DNA of 32,442 nucleotides, from assembly GCA_016875225.1 (NCBI GenBank), contig VGRW01000040.1, positions 1 through 32,442 on the forward strand, given 5' to 3'. Each line of letters begins with the position of its first letter. Positions within the stretch are counted from its first letter, which is position 1. The notes below the pieces were generated by a model that saw nothing but the letters and a program-made list of their open reading frames with translations, did no database searches and had not been told where the DNA came from. Source of the DNA: Deltaproteobacteria bacterium (GTDB lineage: Bacteria; Myxococcota_A; UBA9160; SZUA-336). Shown one piece after another: positions 2,598 to 27,821 of this stretch. Position numbers and translations under genes: made by a program.

Positions 2598-3049
2598 GCG
2601 CTGCGCGCGTGCTCGCCCGCATCGAGGCGCTCGGCGCGAGGATCGACGTGCACCGGGGCCGGCTCCGCGTGGTTGCTCCCCGGGGAGTGCTTGGCGAGCA
2701 GGACCTCGAGGCGCTCGCGACGCAGAAGGCCGAGCTTCTCGCGCTGTTCCGGAACCAGGCCTCCCTCACTCGCTCGGCCCGGGCTCGTTTGGATCGGTTC
2801 CTCGAGGACTGCTCGATCCCCTTCGCGGTGCTCCATTCCCGCGCACTCGGTCGCGACTTCCTCCTCGCGCGCGACGGAGCTGCGCTCGAGGACCTCGCCG
2901 AGGCGGCGGGCCGTTTGCCTGTCCTTACCTTCGCCGATTGCGAGATGCTGGCCGGGCTCGAGGTGCGCGACCTGGCCGAGATCCTCGACGTGCGCGAGGC
3001 CTTCGGCCCGAGCGCGGAGATTCTCGCTGTCAGGCCGCGCCTTGGCTGA
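2594..3049 (+). CDS. TubC N-terminal docking domain-like protein of a mobile element
   Basis: The first 55 of 151 residues follow the TubC_N pattern: a helix (VLARIEALGARI), a short beta hairpin rich in Arg and Val (GRLRVVAPRGVL), and a helix ending KAELLALF. TubC_N was defined as an N-terminal docking domain on polyketide/nonribosomal peptide synthetases, but no such enzyme is present here. Residues 60-151 are unrecognised, acidic and mostly helical. The gene is coupled to the primase-helicase by ATGA at 2594-2597, which suggests the two proteins act together, possibly through the docking fold. That role is inference. The fold assignment is from pattern memory and needs a profile search. Confidence 0.6.
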   Translation: MSAARVLARIEALGARIDVHRGRLRVVAPRGVLGEQDLEALATQKAELLALFRNQASLTRSARARLDRFLEDCSIPFAVLHSRALGRDFLLARDGAALEDLAEAAGRLPVLTFADCEMLAGLEVRDLAEILDVREAFGPSAEILAVRPRLG

Positions 3050-21575: not shown

Positions 21576-21619
21576 CGAGGCGCCCGCATTTCGCGGCGAA
21601 CTTGCGCTCGGAAGGCCTG

Positions 21620-22870
21620 TTGCGGTTCGACCTCTCGCAGAAGCTCGTGCTCGGCTTCACCATGGCGATCGCCATCGGCGCCGGGATCACTCCGGCGCTG
21701 CACTGGCTCGGCGTGCCGAGCTGGGGCGCGTTCTTCGTCGTGATGCTGGCCGGGATCGGCCTCGGCTGGATCTATGCCGGGCAGATCACCGCGAACTTCC
21801 GCACGCTTCGCGCCTGCACAGAGCGGATCAGCCGCGGCGACCTTTTGGCCGAGATCGACATCGAGGCCGGCCGCCGCTTCCCGGACGAGACCGTCGACCT
21901 GGCGCGCTCGATCGGCGGCATGCTGCAGAAGCTCCGCGAGCTCGTCGATCACATCCAGCGCGCCGCCGAAGACGTGGCGCAGTCCTCGCGCGACGTCGCG
22001 ACCTCGTCGCCCCGCGTGAACAGCACCAGCCACGCGCTCGGCGCGACCATGGAGACCGTCTCGTCGAGCGCGGGCCAGCAGCAGCGCGACGTCGAGCAGA
22101 TCCGCGCGCGCATCCACGAGATCGCCGATTCGCTTCGCGCCAACGCCGACGCCGCGCGCCGCGCCTCGTCGCTCACCAGCGAGGCCAGCCAGCGCGCGAC
22201 CGCGGGCGTCGAGGTCTCGCGGCTCTCGCAGGCGAAGATGCAGAGCCTGTTCGAGCGGATCGAGCAGGCCGGACACCGCGTGGAGAGCTTCGAGGGCAAG
22301 ATCCACTCGGTGCACCGCGTCACCGAGATGATCTCGAGCGTCGTCGAGAAGACGCACCTGCTCTCGCTGAACGCCTCGATCGAGGCGGCGCGCGCGGGCG
22401 ACGCGGGGCGCGGCTTCTCGGTGGTCGCGGAGGAGATCCGCAAGCTCGCCGAGAGCGCGGGCAGCTCGGCCGAACAGATCGAGGATCTGATCCGCGAGCT
22501 CGAAGAGGAGTCCAAGCGGATCGCACAGGCGACGCTGGCCATGCGCGACGACGTGCGCGGCGGCCGGCAGGACCTCGAAGCCATCTTCGTCGCGCTCGAG
22601 AAGGTGCAGGGCGCGGTCACCGAGGCGTCGAACCGCGCCGAGGACATCTTCCAGAAGGCGGGCAGCCAGGCGGCGGACTCCGAACGCATGGTCGGCGACG
22701 TCGAGCGCGTGGCGGCCGTCGTGGGCCAGAACGCCAAGGCGATGAACGAGATGCGCGGCGGGCTCGGCGCGCAGACGCGAACGATGGAGCAGATGGTGCG
22801 CGAGGCCGCGCGCCTCTCCGACATGTCGGTCCAGCTCGGCGAGGTCGCGCGCCGGTTCCGGACCCGGTAG
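21620..22870 (+). CDS. Methyl-accepting chemotaxis-type receptor without periplasmic domain
   Basis: The protein has 416 residues. Two membrane segments (about 8-29 and 36-54) are joined by only a few residues, so no periplasmic sensor domain exists. A HAMP-like region (55-110) and a long signalling coiled coil follow, whose tip [25 protein letters not shown]... (about 246-270) is the CheA/CheW contact region. No C-terminal CheR-docking pentapeptide is present. The signal is probably sensed in or near the membrane, or from a partner. The start is uncertain: TTG at 21620 has GGAAGG four bases before it, while TTG at 21602 would add six residues. It heads a receptor-cheW-cheY-cheA-cheC operon. 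Confidence 0.9.
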
Positions 22871-22884
22871 GCGAGGGCGCAAAC

Positions 22885-23352
22885 GTGGAAACGACTCCCT
22901 GGCTGCGCTTCGAGGTCTCCGAGCAGGCGTATGCGATTCCGCTGGCGTCGGTGGTCGAGGTGACGGGCGCCGCCCGGCCGCATCTGATTCCGCGCATCCC
23001 GCTCGAGATCGGCGGCGTGCTGAACGTTCGCGGCGAGCCGCTTCCCGCGGTCGACGGCGGGACGGTGCTCACCGGCTCGAAGTCGAAGCGTCACCGACAC
23101 GTGTTGGTGCTCGAGCGCGGCGAGCTGCGCATCGGCGTCCTGGTCGGAGCCGTGCGCAGGATCGAGCGCGAGCTCGCGGCGGAGCCGCCTTCCGACGACG
23201 CGGCCGACCCCGAGCTGGTGCGCTGGGTGATTCAGGACGACACGGCTCTGGGGCTGGTCGACCCCGAGGGGCTGATCGAACGGGCGACGATGCTGCTCAC
23301 GGATCAACGCAAGCAGCCTGGAGGACAGGAGGCATGGCAAACCGGGTTCTGA
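22885..23352 (+). CDS. cheW: CheW-like coupling protein
   Basis: This 155-residue CheW-domain protein has the usual beta-barrel motifs: [18 protein letters not shown], then [23 protein letters not shown], and [10 protein letters not shown]. CheW bridges the receptor tip and CheA in the cytoplasmic signalling array. The GTG at 22885 has GAGGG seven bases upstream (22873-22877) and starts directly at the domain. Its last 19 bases overlap cheY. The last 40 residues, beyond the usual core, form a short extension that includes [18 protein letters not shown]. Confidence 0.88.
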
Positions 23353-23708
23353 TCGCGGACGACGCGGCATTCATGCGAGAGATGCTGCGCGACATACTCA
23401 CGGACGGCGGCTACGAGGTCGTGGGCGAGGCGGCGGACGGAAACGAGGCCGTCTCGGCCTTCGCCAAGCATCTGCCCGACCTGCTCACGCTCGACATCGT
23501 GATGCCGCGAAAGAGCGGCCTGGAGGCGCTGCGCGAGATCGTCGCGGCGCACCCGGGCGCCTGCGTGGTGATGTGCAGTGCGCTGGGCCAGGAGGCGCTG
23601 GTGATGGAGGCGCTCGAGGCCGGCGCGCGGGACTTCATCGTGAAGCCGTTCAAGCCGGATCACGTGCTCGAGGTGGCGCAGAAGGCGCTCGCCAAGTCGG
23701 ACGACTGA
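23334..23708 (+). CDS. cheY: CheY-type response regulator
   Basis: This single receiver domain of 124 residues has the acidic pair D9-D10 (IADDAAF), the phosphoacceptor D54 ([12 protein letters not shown]), the switch Ser near 82 (VMCSALG) and K104 ([11 protein letters not shown]). When phosphorylated by CheA it would carry the signal to a motor or another output. A strong ribosome-binding site AGGAGG (23326-23331) precedes the ATG, inside the cheW end. cheA follows 13 bases later. Loss of phosphate is probably assisted by the CheC encoded two genes on. Confidence 0.94.
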
Positions 23709-23721
23709 CCCGGGATCTCTC

Positions 23722-25319
23722 CTGAACCTCGAGAAGTACAGAACGCTCTTCGTCGACGAGGCGGGCGACCATCTCCAGGAGATGGGCCGCGCGCTCGCCG
23801 CGCTCTCGGCCGGCGACGAGCCGATCGAGAGCGCGATCGACACGCTCTTCCGCATGGCCCACTCGATCAAGGGCATGGCGGCGTCGCTCGACTACGACGC
23901 GATCGCGTCGCTCTCGCACCGGCTCGAGGACTGGATGGAGCCGCTTCGCGCGGGCGCGGAGTTCGACCGCTCCCAGCTCGATCTTCTCGCCGAGGCGATC
24001 TCCTCGCTCGAGGAGATGGTCGCCCGCGTGGACGAGAACGGCACCCCTGACCCGGCGCGCGAGGATCTGCTGCTGCGGCTCGCGCAGAAATCCGAGGCGG
24101 CCACCGCGATCCAGCCCGGGCTCAAAAAAAAACTCCCGAGACCGCGGCAGCGCCGCTCCCTCGCACGGTTCGCGTTCGCACGGAGGCGATCGACCGCTTC
24201 CTGGCCGCGGTAGGCGTGCTGATGCAGGGCCAGTCGCGCCTCGAGGAGCTGCACCGCCGCGCGCCCTACTGGGACGGCCAGGGCGCGTTCGTCGACGAGC
24301 TCGACCAGCTCGCGCGCGTCGTGCGCGACCTGCGCCGCCACGCGCTCGACATCCGCATCACTCCGGTCCGCCGCGTGCTCGAACGGCTGCCGCGCGTGGC
24401 CCAGGATCTTGCGCGCGAGCTCGGAAAGCTCGTGCGCGTGGAGCTCGTCGGTGAGGAGGTCGAGGTCGACCGGGCGGTGCTCGATCACCTGGACGATTCG
24501 CTCCTGCACCTGGTGCGAAACGCGATCGACCACGGGCTCGAGAACGAGGCCGAGCGCAGAGCCGCCGGCAAGGACGCGATCGGGACGCTGCGCATGCGCG
24601 CGTCGCGGGTCGGCGGGCGCCTGCAGATGAGGCTCGAAGAGGACGGCCGCGGAATCGACGTCGAGAAGGTGCGCAGGCGCGCGATCGAGCGCGGTCTGCT
24701 GCTCGAGATGGTGGCCGAGGATCTGCCGGCCGGGCGAATCCTCGAGTTCATCTTCGAGCCAGGCATCTCCACACGCGACAGCGTCAGCGACATCTCCGGG
24801 CGGGGCGTCGGGCTCGACGCCGTGAAGCGGCAGCTGGAGGCGCTCGGCGGGACGATCTCGGTCGAGAGCGCGCCAGGAAAGGGAACCGCGTTCCTGCTCG
24901 ATCTGCCCGCGATGGTCGCCTTGCAGCGGGTGCTCGTGCTGCTGGTCTCGGGCGAGCGCGTGGCGCTGCCGATCGCGGCTGTCGAGGCGGTGCTCTCGGT
25001 CGAGGAGGCCGCCGTCGAGCGCGCCGGTGTCGACGCGTTCTTCATGCTGAAGGAGGAGCCGCTTCCGCTGCTCGATCTCGGGCCGCGCCTCGGCGTGGAC
25101 CCGACCCGCGCGGACGGAGGCTGCGTCGTCGTGGTGGAGGCGCGCGGCTTCAAGCTCGGCCTGCTCGTCGACCGCGTGGTCGACGACCTGGAGGTCTTCG
25201 TGCGCGAGACGCCGCCGCCCCTGCGCGCGCTCGCGTCCCTGGGCGGTGTCGCGATCCTGCGCGACGGCGCCCCTGTCTTCCTGCTCGAGATCGGCTCGCT
25301 CGTGGAGAACTTCCCGTGA
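23722..25319 (+). CDS. cheA: CheA histidine kinase, split between two frames at an A9 run
   Basis: The Hpt domain (phospho-His H47 in FRMAHSIKGMAASL) is read in one frame and the rest in the -1 frame; the switch is at nine A (24124-24132). After the switch come the dimerisation domain (VRVRTEAIDRFL), the kinase N-box HLVRNAIDHG (about 263-272), EDGRGID (about 307), GRGVGLDAVK (about 360) and a CheW-like domain (about 400-530). Without the shift, translation stops at 24211-24213 after a basic tail, giving an Hpt-only protein. With a -1 shift the product is about 532 residues. No P2 (CheY-docking) domain is visible. The Hpt helix A (NLEKYRTLFVDEAGDHLQE) begins at a CTG at 23722; the first ATG in frame, 23782, would cut it off. 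It ends in a GTGA overlap with cheC. Confidence 0.85.
24124..24163 (+). other. Candidate -1 frameshift or transcriptional slippage site in cheA
   Basis: CTC AAA AAA AAA CTC contains nine A and offers A-AAA-AAA as a slippery heptamer. Four bases later a two-part stem follows: CGAG (24137-24140) with CTCG (24160-24163), and inside it GCGGC (24144-24148) with GCCGC (24152-24156) on an AGC loop. No Shine-Dalgarno-like stimulator is clear upstream. The same run could also produce 10-A transcripts by polymerase slippage, as known for Thermus dnaX. Confidence 0.6.
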
Positions 25320-25870
25320 GCGCGTCAGCGGATCGCATCGCCGAGATCGCGAACATCTGCGCGGGCCATGCCTCGAGCGCGCTCGCGGACCTGCTCGACG
25401 CGACGCTGCTCTTCGAGCCTCCGACGGTCCACGCGCTGCCCGAGGGGCGACCGCTCGAGACGCTCTTCGCGCGCGAGGACCGGGTCGCCGCCGTGTTCGT
25501 CGAGCTCGAGGGCGTGCTGCGCGCGGATGCCGCGCTCCTGCTCTCGGCGAGCGCGGTCGAGGAGGTCCTGGCGCGCGTGGCCGGGAAGAGCGCCGACGAG
25601 ACCAGCGCGGGCTCGACGCTCACGGTGCTCGCAGAGGTGGGGAACATCGCGCTCTCCGCTGCGGCGAACGCGCTCGCGGTTCTGCTCGGCGAGCGCTCGC
25701 TTCCGTCGGTGCCGCGCGCGGCCTACGCGCGCGAGGGAACGCTCTCGATGCGCGAGCTCGGTCGCGGCGCGGATCGTGCACGCTCCGTCGTGGTCGTGGA
25801 GCTGGTCGAGCGTTCCGGGCCGCTGCGCCTGCACTTCGTGCTGGTGCCCAGGGACGAGGCGATCGACTAG
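25316..25870 (+). CDS. cheC: CheC-family CheY-P phosphatase
   Basis: This 184-residue protein has both copies of the CheC/CheX/FliY active-site pattern Glu-x-x-Asn: E10-N13 in AEIANICAGHASSAL and E107-N110 in LAEVGNIALSAAANAL. Such proteins remove phosphate from CheY-P and take the place of CheZ. The GTG at 25316 overlaps the cheA stop (GTGA), so the two are coupled. No cheD, cheR or cheB is visible in the window, so the methylation arm of adaptation is absent here or encoded elsewhere. The second half holds the usual mixed alpha/beta core and ends close to the larB promoter region. Confidence 0.87.
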   Translation: MSASADRIAEIANICAGHASSALADLLDATLLFEPPTVHALPEGRPLETLFAREDRVAAVFVELEGVLRADAALLLSASAVEEVLARVAGKSADETSAGSTLTVLAEVGNIALSAAANALAVLLGERSLPSVPRAAYAREGTLSMRELGRGADRARSVVVVELVERSGPLRLHFVLVPRDEAID

Positions 25871-25882
25871 ACTCGGCGCGGA

Positions 25883-26632
25883 ATGGACCGCGACCGATTG
25901 AACGCGCTACTGGACGGCTTCGCGCGCGGGGATCTCGAGCGCGACGAGCTGGTCGAGATGCTCGCGAGGCTGCCGTTCCAGGCGCTCGGCGATGCGCGCG
26001 TCGACACCCATCGCTCGCTCCGAAACGGCGTTCCCGAGGTGGTCCTGGGCGAAGGAAAGACGGTCGACCAGATCGCGCGGATCGTTCGGGTGCTGCGCGA
26101 TGCGGGCGGGGACGTGCTCGTGACGCGCGTCTCGGCCGAGCAGGCGCGCGCGCTGATTGCGGCGGTGCCCGGACTCGAGCATCTCGCCGCGGGGCGCCTG
26201 CTGGTGCTGCGGCAGACGCCGCTCGTTCCGCGCGGACGCGGCGTGATCGCGGTCGTCTCCGCGGGAACCTCCGACCTGCCCGTCGCCGAGGAGGCCGCGC
26301 TCGTCGCGGAGCACTTCGGCAACAAGGTCGAGCGCGTCTACGACTCCGGCGTATCGGGTCTGCACCGGCTGCTGGCCTCGCTCGAGACGCTGCGCGGCGC
26401 CTCGGTCGTGATCGCGGTCGCGGGAATGGAAGGGGCGCTCGCCTCGGTCGTCGGTGGGCTCGTCGCCGTGCCGGTGATCGCGGTGCCGACGAGCATCGGC
26501 TATGGTGCGTCCTTCGGCGGTGTCGCGGCGCTGCTCGCGATGCTGAACTCCTGCGCCGCGAACGTCACGGTGGTGAACATCGACAATGGCTTCGGAGCCG
26601 CGTACGTCGCGTCGCTCGTCAATCGCGCCTAG
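25883..26632 (+). CDS. larB: LarB, nickel-pincer cofactor biosynthesis carboxylase/hydrolase
   Basis: LarB (249 residues) carboxylates and hydrolyses nicotinic acid adenine dinucleotide in the first step of nickel-pincer nucleotide synthesis, the cofactor of lactate racemase and related enzymes. The C-terminal half is related to AIR carboxylase (PurE): VSAGTSDLPVAEEAALVAE, VIAVAGMEGALASVVGGL and PTSIGYGASFGGVAALLAML match the family. The N-terminus has DTHRSLRNGVPEVVLGEGKT, also conserved. The ATG at 25883 follows TAGACT (25868-25873), a candidate -10 box that includes the cheC stop. Its end overlaps larC by 47 bases. Confidence 0.94.
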   Translation: MDRDRLNALLDGFARGDLERDELVEMLARLPFQALGDARVDTHRSLRNGVPEVVLGEGKTVDQIARIVRVLRDAGGDVLVTRVSAEQARALIAAVPGLEHLAAGRLLVLRQTPLVPRGRGVIAVVSAGTSDLPVAEEAALVAEHFGNKVERVYDSGVSGLHRLLASLETLRGASVVIAVAGMEGALASVVGGLVAVPVIAVPTSIGYGASFGGVAALLAMLNSCAANVTVVNIDNGFGAAYVASLVNRA

Positions 26633-27821
26633 GCACGGCGCGCGCGCGGATCGCGCGCTCCACTTCGACTGCTTCTCCGGCGCCTCCGGAAACATGCTTC
26701 TCGGCGCCCTGCTCGAAATCGGCGCTCCGGTGTCCGCGGTGCGCGCGGCGCTCGCCGGGCTCGGGGTCGGGCCGATCCGGATGCGACTCTCGCACGTCGC
26801 GCGCGGGGCGATCCGTGCACGCCACGTCGGGTTCTCGACCCGCGAGCGCGGTCACGAAGGCCGGCCCTTCCGCGCGGTCCGGGCGATTCTGCGCAAGGCG
26901 CGAATCGAGCCGCGCGTGCGCGAGCGCAGCGTCGAGGTGTTCGAGCGACTCGCGCGCGCCGAGGGACGGATCCACGGCGTGCCGATCGAACGCGTGCACT
27001 TCCACGAGGTCGGCGCGATCGACGCGCTCGGAGACGTCGTCGGGGTCTGCGCGGCGGTCGAGTCGCTCGGGGTCGGGAGCGTCAGCTGCACTCCGCTTCC
27101 GCTCGGCCGCGGCGCGGTCGACACCGAGCACGGGCCGATCCCGCTCCCCGCGCCCGCGACGCTCGAGCTGCTGCGCGGCGTGCCCACCGTTCCGCTCGAC
27201 GTCCGCTGGGAGACGGTGACACCGACCGGTGCCGCGCTGCTCGCGACCCTCGTCGGCGAATTCGGCCCGATGCCCGCGCTTCGTCCGCTGGCGCAGGGCT
27301 TCGGCGCCGGAGAGGACCGCGCGGGGCCGCTGCCCAACGTGCTGCGTGCCGTGCTCGGAGAGCTCGAGCCGGAGCTGGGACGCGACCATGTCGCGCTTCT
27401 CGAGACCAACCTCGACGACATGAGCCCGGAGCACCTGCCCTTCCTGATGGAGCGGCTTCTCGACGACGGGGCGCTCGACGTCTCGCTCGTGCCGCAGCTG
27501 ATGAAGAAGGGCCGTCCGGGCCAGCTCCTGCGCGTGCTGGCGCGACCGCCCGACGCGGAGCGGCTCGCGCGCCGGGTGCTCTCGGATTCGACCGCGCTCG
27601 GCGTGCGCGTGCAGCTCGTGCCCCGGCTCGTGCGGGCTCGAAGCGCGCGCTCGGTGCAGACACCGTACGGGGTGATTCGCGTCAAGCTCGCCGGAGGCGC
27701 GAGGGAGGGGATCCGAGTGAAGCCGGAGTACGAGTCCTGCGCGCGCGCCGCGCGCCGGCACCGGGTTTCGATCGAGAGCGTCGCGCGTGCGGCGGATCTC
27801 GCGGCGCGGGGGCTGCCTTGA
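26586..27821 (+). CDS. larC: LarC, nickel-insertion protein of the nickel-pincer nucleotide pathway
   Basis: LarC (411 residues) inserts nickel into the pincer nucleotide in a CTP-dependent step. Family motifs are HFDCFSGASGNMLLGALLE near the start, VHFHEVGAIDALGDVVG, the glycine-rich PLPLGRG with HGPIPLPAPAT, ETNLDDMSPE and KKGRPGQLL in the C-terminal half. In Lactobacillus plantarum the protein is made from two frames by programmed frameshifting; here both halves lie in one uninterrupted frame. The ATG at 26586 lies inside larB (47-base overlap), and no later ATG, GTG or TTG precedes the conserved FDCFSGASG. Its stop overlaps the TTG of the hydrolase (TTGA). larE, the sulfur-transfer partner, is not in the window. 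Confidence 0.93.
   Translation: MASEPRTSRRSSIAPRHGARADRALHFDCFSGASGNMLLGALLEIGAPVSAVRAALAGLGVGPIRMRLSHVARGAIRARHVGFSTRERGHEGRPFRAVRAILRKARIEPRVRERSVEVFERLARAEGRIHGVPIERVHFHEVGAIDALGDVVGVCAAVESLGVGSVSCTPLPLGRGAVDTEHGPIPLPAPATLELLRGVPTVPLDVRWETVTPTGAALLATLVGEFGPMPALRPLAQGFGAGEDRAGPLPNVLRAVLGELEPELGRDHVALLETNLDDMSPEHLPFLMERLLDDGALDVSLVPQLMKKGRPGQLLRVLARPPDAERLARRVLSDSTALGVRVQLVPRLVRARSARSVQTPYGVIRVKLAGGAREGIRVKPEYESCARAARRHRVSIESVARAADLAARGLP

Follow-up and report, generated by a model that had tools for sequence, protein, structure and literature searches.

The chemotaxis operon of the window (i.e., the whole 32,442-nt stretch of deltaproteobacterial DNA analyzed here) contained a cheA gene divided between two reading frames, raising the question of whether the break is an error, a boundary between two genes, a genetic switch, or a site of recoding. 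The first frame (23722..24213, plus strand) encoded a stand-alone Hpt domain (P1-like; PF01627, E = 1.5e-16) and a tail of 26 codons past a run of nine adenines, and ended with a TAG at 24211-24213. The -1 frame (24051..25319, plus strand) encoded the linker and, according to Pfam, the H-kinase_dim (P3), HATPase_c (P4), and CheW-like (P5) domains of CheA, with P3 conserved from 24168. Both frames were open from 24051 to 24213, the A9 run (24124..24132, plus strand) lay inside this overlap, and joining the Hpt frame to the kinase frame requires a -1 shift. Frames and Pfam matches together confirmed the initial annotation, in which the Hpt and kinase domains occupy separate frames that meet by a -1 shift at A9. 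The CheA domain set (Hpt, H-kinase_dim, HATPase_c, and CheW) was complete across the two frames; a domain search of the window CheA detected no P2 domain. The Hpt ORF would start at CTG 23722, a position at which relatives mostly have GTG, TTG, or ATG; the first in-frame ATG was at 23782. At this conserved start position (V/L-D-L), the codon was CTG in the window (23722-23724) and CTC in 14 relatives.

The surrounding genes, all on the plus strand, were a methyl-accepting chemotaxis protein (21590..22870) and cheW (22888..23352), both with approximate starts; cheY directly upstream of cheA (23334..23708); and a CheC-like phosphatase gene overlapping the cheA stop (25316..25870). Across the class, cheY was immediately 5' of cheA in 62 of 63 evaluable loci, and a CheC-like gene was downstream in 35 of 42. 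Further along the window (25883-27821), a LarB-like (AIRC) gene overlapped an unbroken larC (Ni_insertion); programmed frameshifting in the LarC/DUF111 family has been reported elsewhere (PMC3711429).

The A9 run stood out from its background. As the initial annotation had claimed, it was the longest A run of the window, and the only one of at least seven A; shuffling gave an expectation of 0.04 A7 matches in the window. Lysine codons in ten clear window genes were AAG 113 times and AAA once, so three consecutive AAA codons are not a product of codon drift. The whole 3.87-Mb genome contained two A9 runs, and that of cheA was the only coding one found. The second A9 supplied the T-run of a terminator-like hairpin (L167 1502-1531, minus strand; contig C3 of G000) just upstream of a DAHP-synthase ORF, where the hairpin may act as an attenuator or terminate the preceding gene. 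The genome's own dnaX was an open frame of 541 aa, and no run of at least seven A was found at that gene.

A kinase-domain profile run against 91 genomes of this class of uncultured bacteria recovered orthologous cheA in 72, and in 67 of these both the Hpt and the kinase halves were readable. Among the 67 evaluable genomes, 53 had a -1 relation between the Hpt and kinase frames with an A7-A10 run between them (52 directly, and G090 after allowing for a stretch of N further downstream), and three (G030, G050, and G051) had frames related by +1/-2 at an A run with G as its next base. The remaining 11 genes were unbroken, and ten of them were without any A run. Broken genes were distributed over 8 families and 29 genera, and G001, from the window's genus, had an A9 run with the identical break. 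Run lengths within the -1 class included A7 (n = 22) and A8 (n = 9), and A9-A10 runs made up approximately 40% of broken genes. The three +1/-2 genomes formed one supported clade on the tree; their breaks were at A7G or A10G (L148, L156, and L026, from G051, G050, and G030, respectively).

This survey bears on the explanation that the initial annotation had named as its main alternative, namely a homopolymer error in sequencing or assembly. The source is a metagenome-assembled genome (MAG) and an A9 run is a typical site of indel errors; against this, 56 independent class genomes were broken at the same place, nearly all with the same frame relation, and the same-genus genome shared both run and break. 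Recurrence in 56 of 67 genomes refutes such an error, and the probability left to it in the window is negligible. The question of whether relatives keep the A run and frame break was thereby answered: most do, and 11 of 67 do not.

No A-run break was found in named CheA loci of other phyla; among 379 sampled genomes of the phylum, a search at E<=1e-90 found this CheA in none outside the class, and the only genome checked from another class of the phylum (G091) had an unbroken CheA. A Magnetospirillum MAG locus (L062) had a cheA broken near P3 (at about 2900-3010) with no homopolymer run, probably through a local indel or an assembly error. On the tree, where the four named CheA were from Myxococcota and sat on long branches, 7-8 changes between broken and unbroken cheA were required, indicating that the break was gained or lost repeatedly. 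The unbroken genes also indicate that members of the class can do without two products.

The junction was examined for signs that the frames are connected at the run. In all 55 loci examined, the run lay within the open stretch shared by both frames. G034 and G084 had a shared stretch of only 16 nt, which confines the frame crossing to the run. Between the run and the first conserved P3 residues, the spacing was anywhere in the range 33-237 nt (25 distinct values in 43 loci), and the frame relation was kept throughout. A stop in the Hpt frame was found no more than six codons past the run in 84% of loci, compared with 11% from random kinase positions; the window's family was the main exception, with this stop 26-29 codons past the run. 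For close pairs, dN/dS was 0.05-0.52 in Hpt, 0.06-0.30 in the kinase, and 0.26-0.79 in the linker when translated in the kinase frame. Both the Hpt and the kinase halves are under purifying selection.

The two halves could also be separate genes, with the kinase started near the Hpt stop through reinitiation or translational coupling. Split CheA proteins occur in other bacteria, a precedent for this arrangement, and the Hpt-frame stop does lie near the kinase. Start codons in the right place were scarce: in 29 of 54 loci, among them that of the window, the kinase frame had no ATG, GTG, or TTG between the run and P3, and in only three of the 54 was there a start preceded by a Shine-Dalgarno (SD)-like motif. 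This scarcity makes independent initiation of the kinase unlikely. In addition, the kinase frame was open through the run in 55 of 55 loci, and separate translation leaves the run, its phase, and the hairpins behind it unexplained. Two separate genes are accordingly an improbable account of the locus.

Phase variation, in which changes of run length in the DNA would toggle full CheA within a population, was marginally less probable still. Long homopolymers are mutable, and broken and unbroken genes alternate on the tree, as switching would have it. Run-bearing genes, however, had -1, +1/-2, and in-frame relations in the ratio 53 : 3 : 1, which is far from the mixture expected of a switching locus and argues against phase variation. 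Many runs were merely A7, and in ten of the 11 unbroken genes the run had been lost entirely. The single in-frame case was an A10 in the otherwise unbroken cheA of G059 (L155:1195-1204). There, a -1 slip would soon meet a TGA and give an Hpt-only form, in the layout of E. coli dnaX; as a single case, this can be chance.

The reading put forward in the initial annotation, in which a slippery run resembling that of dnaX yields two products, was the best explanation of a break and run that recur in this way. On comparative evidence, cheA is very probably a programmed recoding gene encoding Hpt alone and full CheA. With no slip, translation would yield a stand-alone, P1-like Hpt ending soon past the A run. 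A net -1 slip at the run would yield full-length CheA (Hpt, linker, P3, P4, and P5), and both products would be made at some ratio. Free Hpt could serve as a diffusible phosphocarrier, phosphorylated in trans by full CheA, that feeds or buffers the neighboring CheY.

The runs themselves carried information on how the slip may occur. In the -1 class, every A7 run was phased as nnA AAA AAA (22 of 22) and every A8 run fell in one of the two phases containing A_AAA_AAA (9 of 9), with the qualification that shared descent reduces the number of independent cases. An in-phase A_AAA_AAA was present at every -1 locus (24126-24132 in the window), and this is informative for A7 and A8 only, since the heptamer occurs in A9 and A10 runs whatever their phase.

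Sequences flanking the run were compared as possible stimulators of slippage. Over 29 genera, the 45 nt past the run were more stable than shuffled sequences (mean z = -1.31), against z values of -0.43 to +0.04 in 15 control windows from those genes (genus-level Wilcoxon p = 4e-6). A7-A8 genes gave a strong signal (z = -1.95, -21.9 kcal/mol) and A9-A10 genes a small one (z = -0.87, -13.5 kcal/mol; controls, -14.0 kcal/mol). SD-like pairing upstream of the heptamer was enriched as well (genus-level p = 0.005), and this enrichment stemmed from A7-A8 genes (mean -7.5 vs. -3.8 kcal/mol). A9-A10 genes were mostly without an SD-like motif or a strong hairpin. In the window, no SD-like element was found upstream of A9. 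The stem that the initial annotation had placed 4 nt past the run does exist, as a bulged hairpin (24137..24163, plus strand; -12.7 kcal/mol). As a stimulator it was weak and unconvincing: its z of -1.56 was obtained for the hand-trimmed hairpin, and stretches of 45 or 67 nt gave 0.0 and -0.2.

In g26, the genus with the best sampling, a stem of 9 bp located 13 nt past the run paired in 95% of cells. Two of its pairs had changed on both sides, and the covariation score was matched by 22 of 500 shuffles, so covariation of this stem is suggestive only. The strongest hairpins of all were those of the +1/-2 genomes G050 and G051 (z = -3.8 and -3.9), right behind the run. Only six independent pairs on the tree differed in run type, too few for significance; among them, the difference was in the expected direction in 3.3 pairs for the hairpin and 4.1 for the SD-like element on average, and almost never in the opposite one. 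Across the family, run length appears to be traded against stimulators.

For A7-A8 genes, codon phase, SD-like element, and hairpin together indicate ribosomal -1 slippage, which is the most likely mechanism there: tandem -1 slippage on A_AAA_AAA would be aided by the SD-like element and the hairpin. For A9-A10 genes, including that of the window, the slip is likely to be made by RNA polymerase on the run or by unassisted ribosomes, with transcriptional slippage no less probable than ribosomal. The A9 of the window reaches the length of roughly nine A that marks transcriptional slippage genes, and the runs of A7-A8 genes do not. In many bacteria, avoidance of slippage first shows at nine A, also the run length of Thermus dnaX (PMC1088944), and two-ORF dnaX genes with 10 A have been assigned to transcriptional slippage (PMC3711429).

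A single mechanism throughout the class, either ribosomal or transcriptional, has an even chance of being correct. Ribosomal slippage alone is compatible with all tests run, and every run of the -1 class holds the in-phase heptamer. Transcriptional slippage alone has the nine-A avoidance length (PMC1088944) and the 10-A two-ORF dnaX precedent (PMC3711429) in its favor; it predicts no codon phase, no SD-like element, and no hairpin in A7-A8 genes, contrary to what was found. Somewhat below even odds, we place the possibility that the two-product output was fixed class-wide while its decoding drifted, being transcriptional and free of stimulators in A9-A10 genes, ribosomal and aided by SD and hairpin in A7-A8 genes, +1/-2 in one clade, and inverted in G059.

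The closest known counterpart is dnaX, which is decoded by ribosomal -1 frameshifting at A_AAA_AAG in E. coli and by transcriptional slippage at A9 in Thermus thermophilus. As proposed here for cheA, dnaX is a multi-domain gene with a poly-A slip site, from which two products with a common N-terminus are made, with an SD-like element and a hairpin in some members; both slippage mechanisms occur within the dnaX family, to which the cheA family can be likened. In two-ORF dnaX genes with A7-A10 runs (PMC3711429), the shifted product is the long form, as it would be in cheA, and the opposite holds for E. coli dnaX. What distinguishes cheA is a run length that changes, along with the stimulators, inside a single bacterial class. 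E. coli copA likewise gives a small N-terminal domain and a full multi-domain protein from one gene (PMC5009743); there, the -1 shift gives the short form and the function is metal transport, whereas in cheA the shift would give the long form and the function is signaling.

Two CheA forms per gene also exist in E. coli, as CheA-L and CheA-S. E. coli CheA-S is made from an internal start and is without the phosphorylation site, whereas here the short form would be Hpt alone, made via a switch of reading frame. No report of a recoded cheA was found in PMC3711429 or PMC1088944, nor in the accessible part of the review PMC5009743, and a survey of 1106 prokaryotic genomes contained no mention of cheA or chemotaxis. 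Literature term searches, in which subscription literature was little covered and earlier reports are possible, returned none. Poly-A recoding is of a known kind, and what appears to be new, with no report found, is its occurrence in cheA and the unusual depth of its conservation.

Conserved recoding is known in few bacterial genes outside mobile elements. Most genomes of the class probably have this cheA labeled by automated annotation as a pseudogene or as two fragments. The cheA family offers a natural experiment in slip-run length versus stimulators and, if true, a fixed proportion of free Hpt to CheA would add a new level of regulation to chemotaxis signaling.
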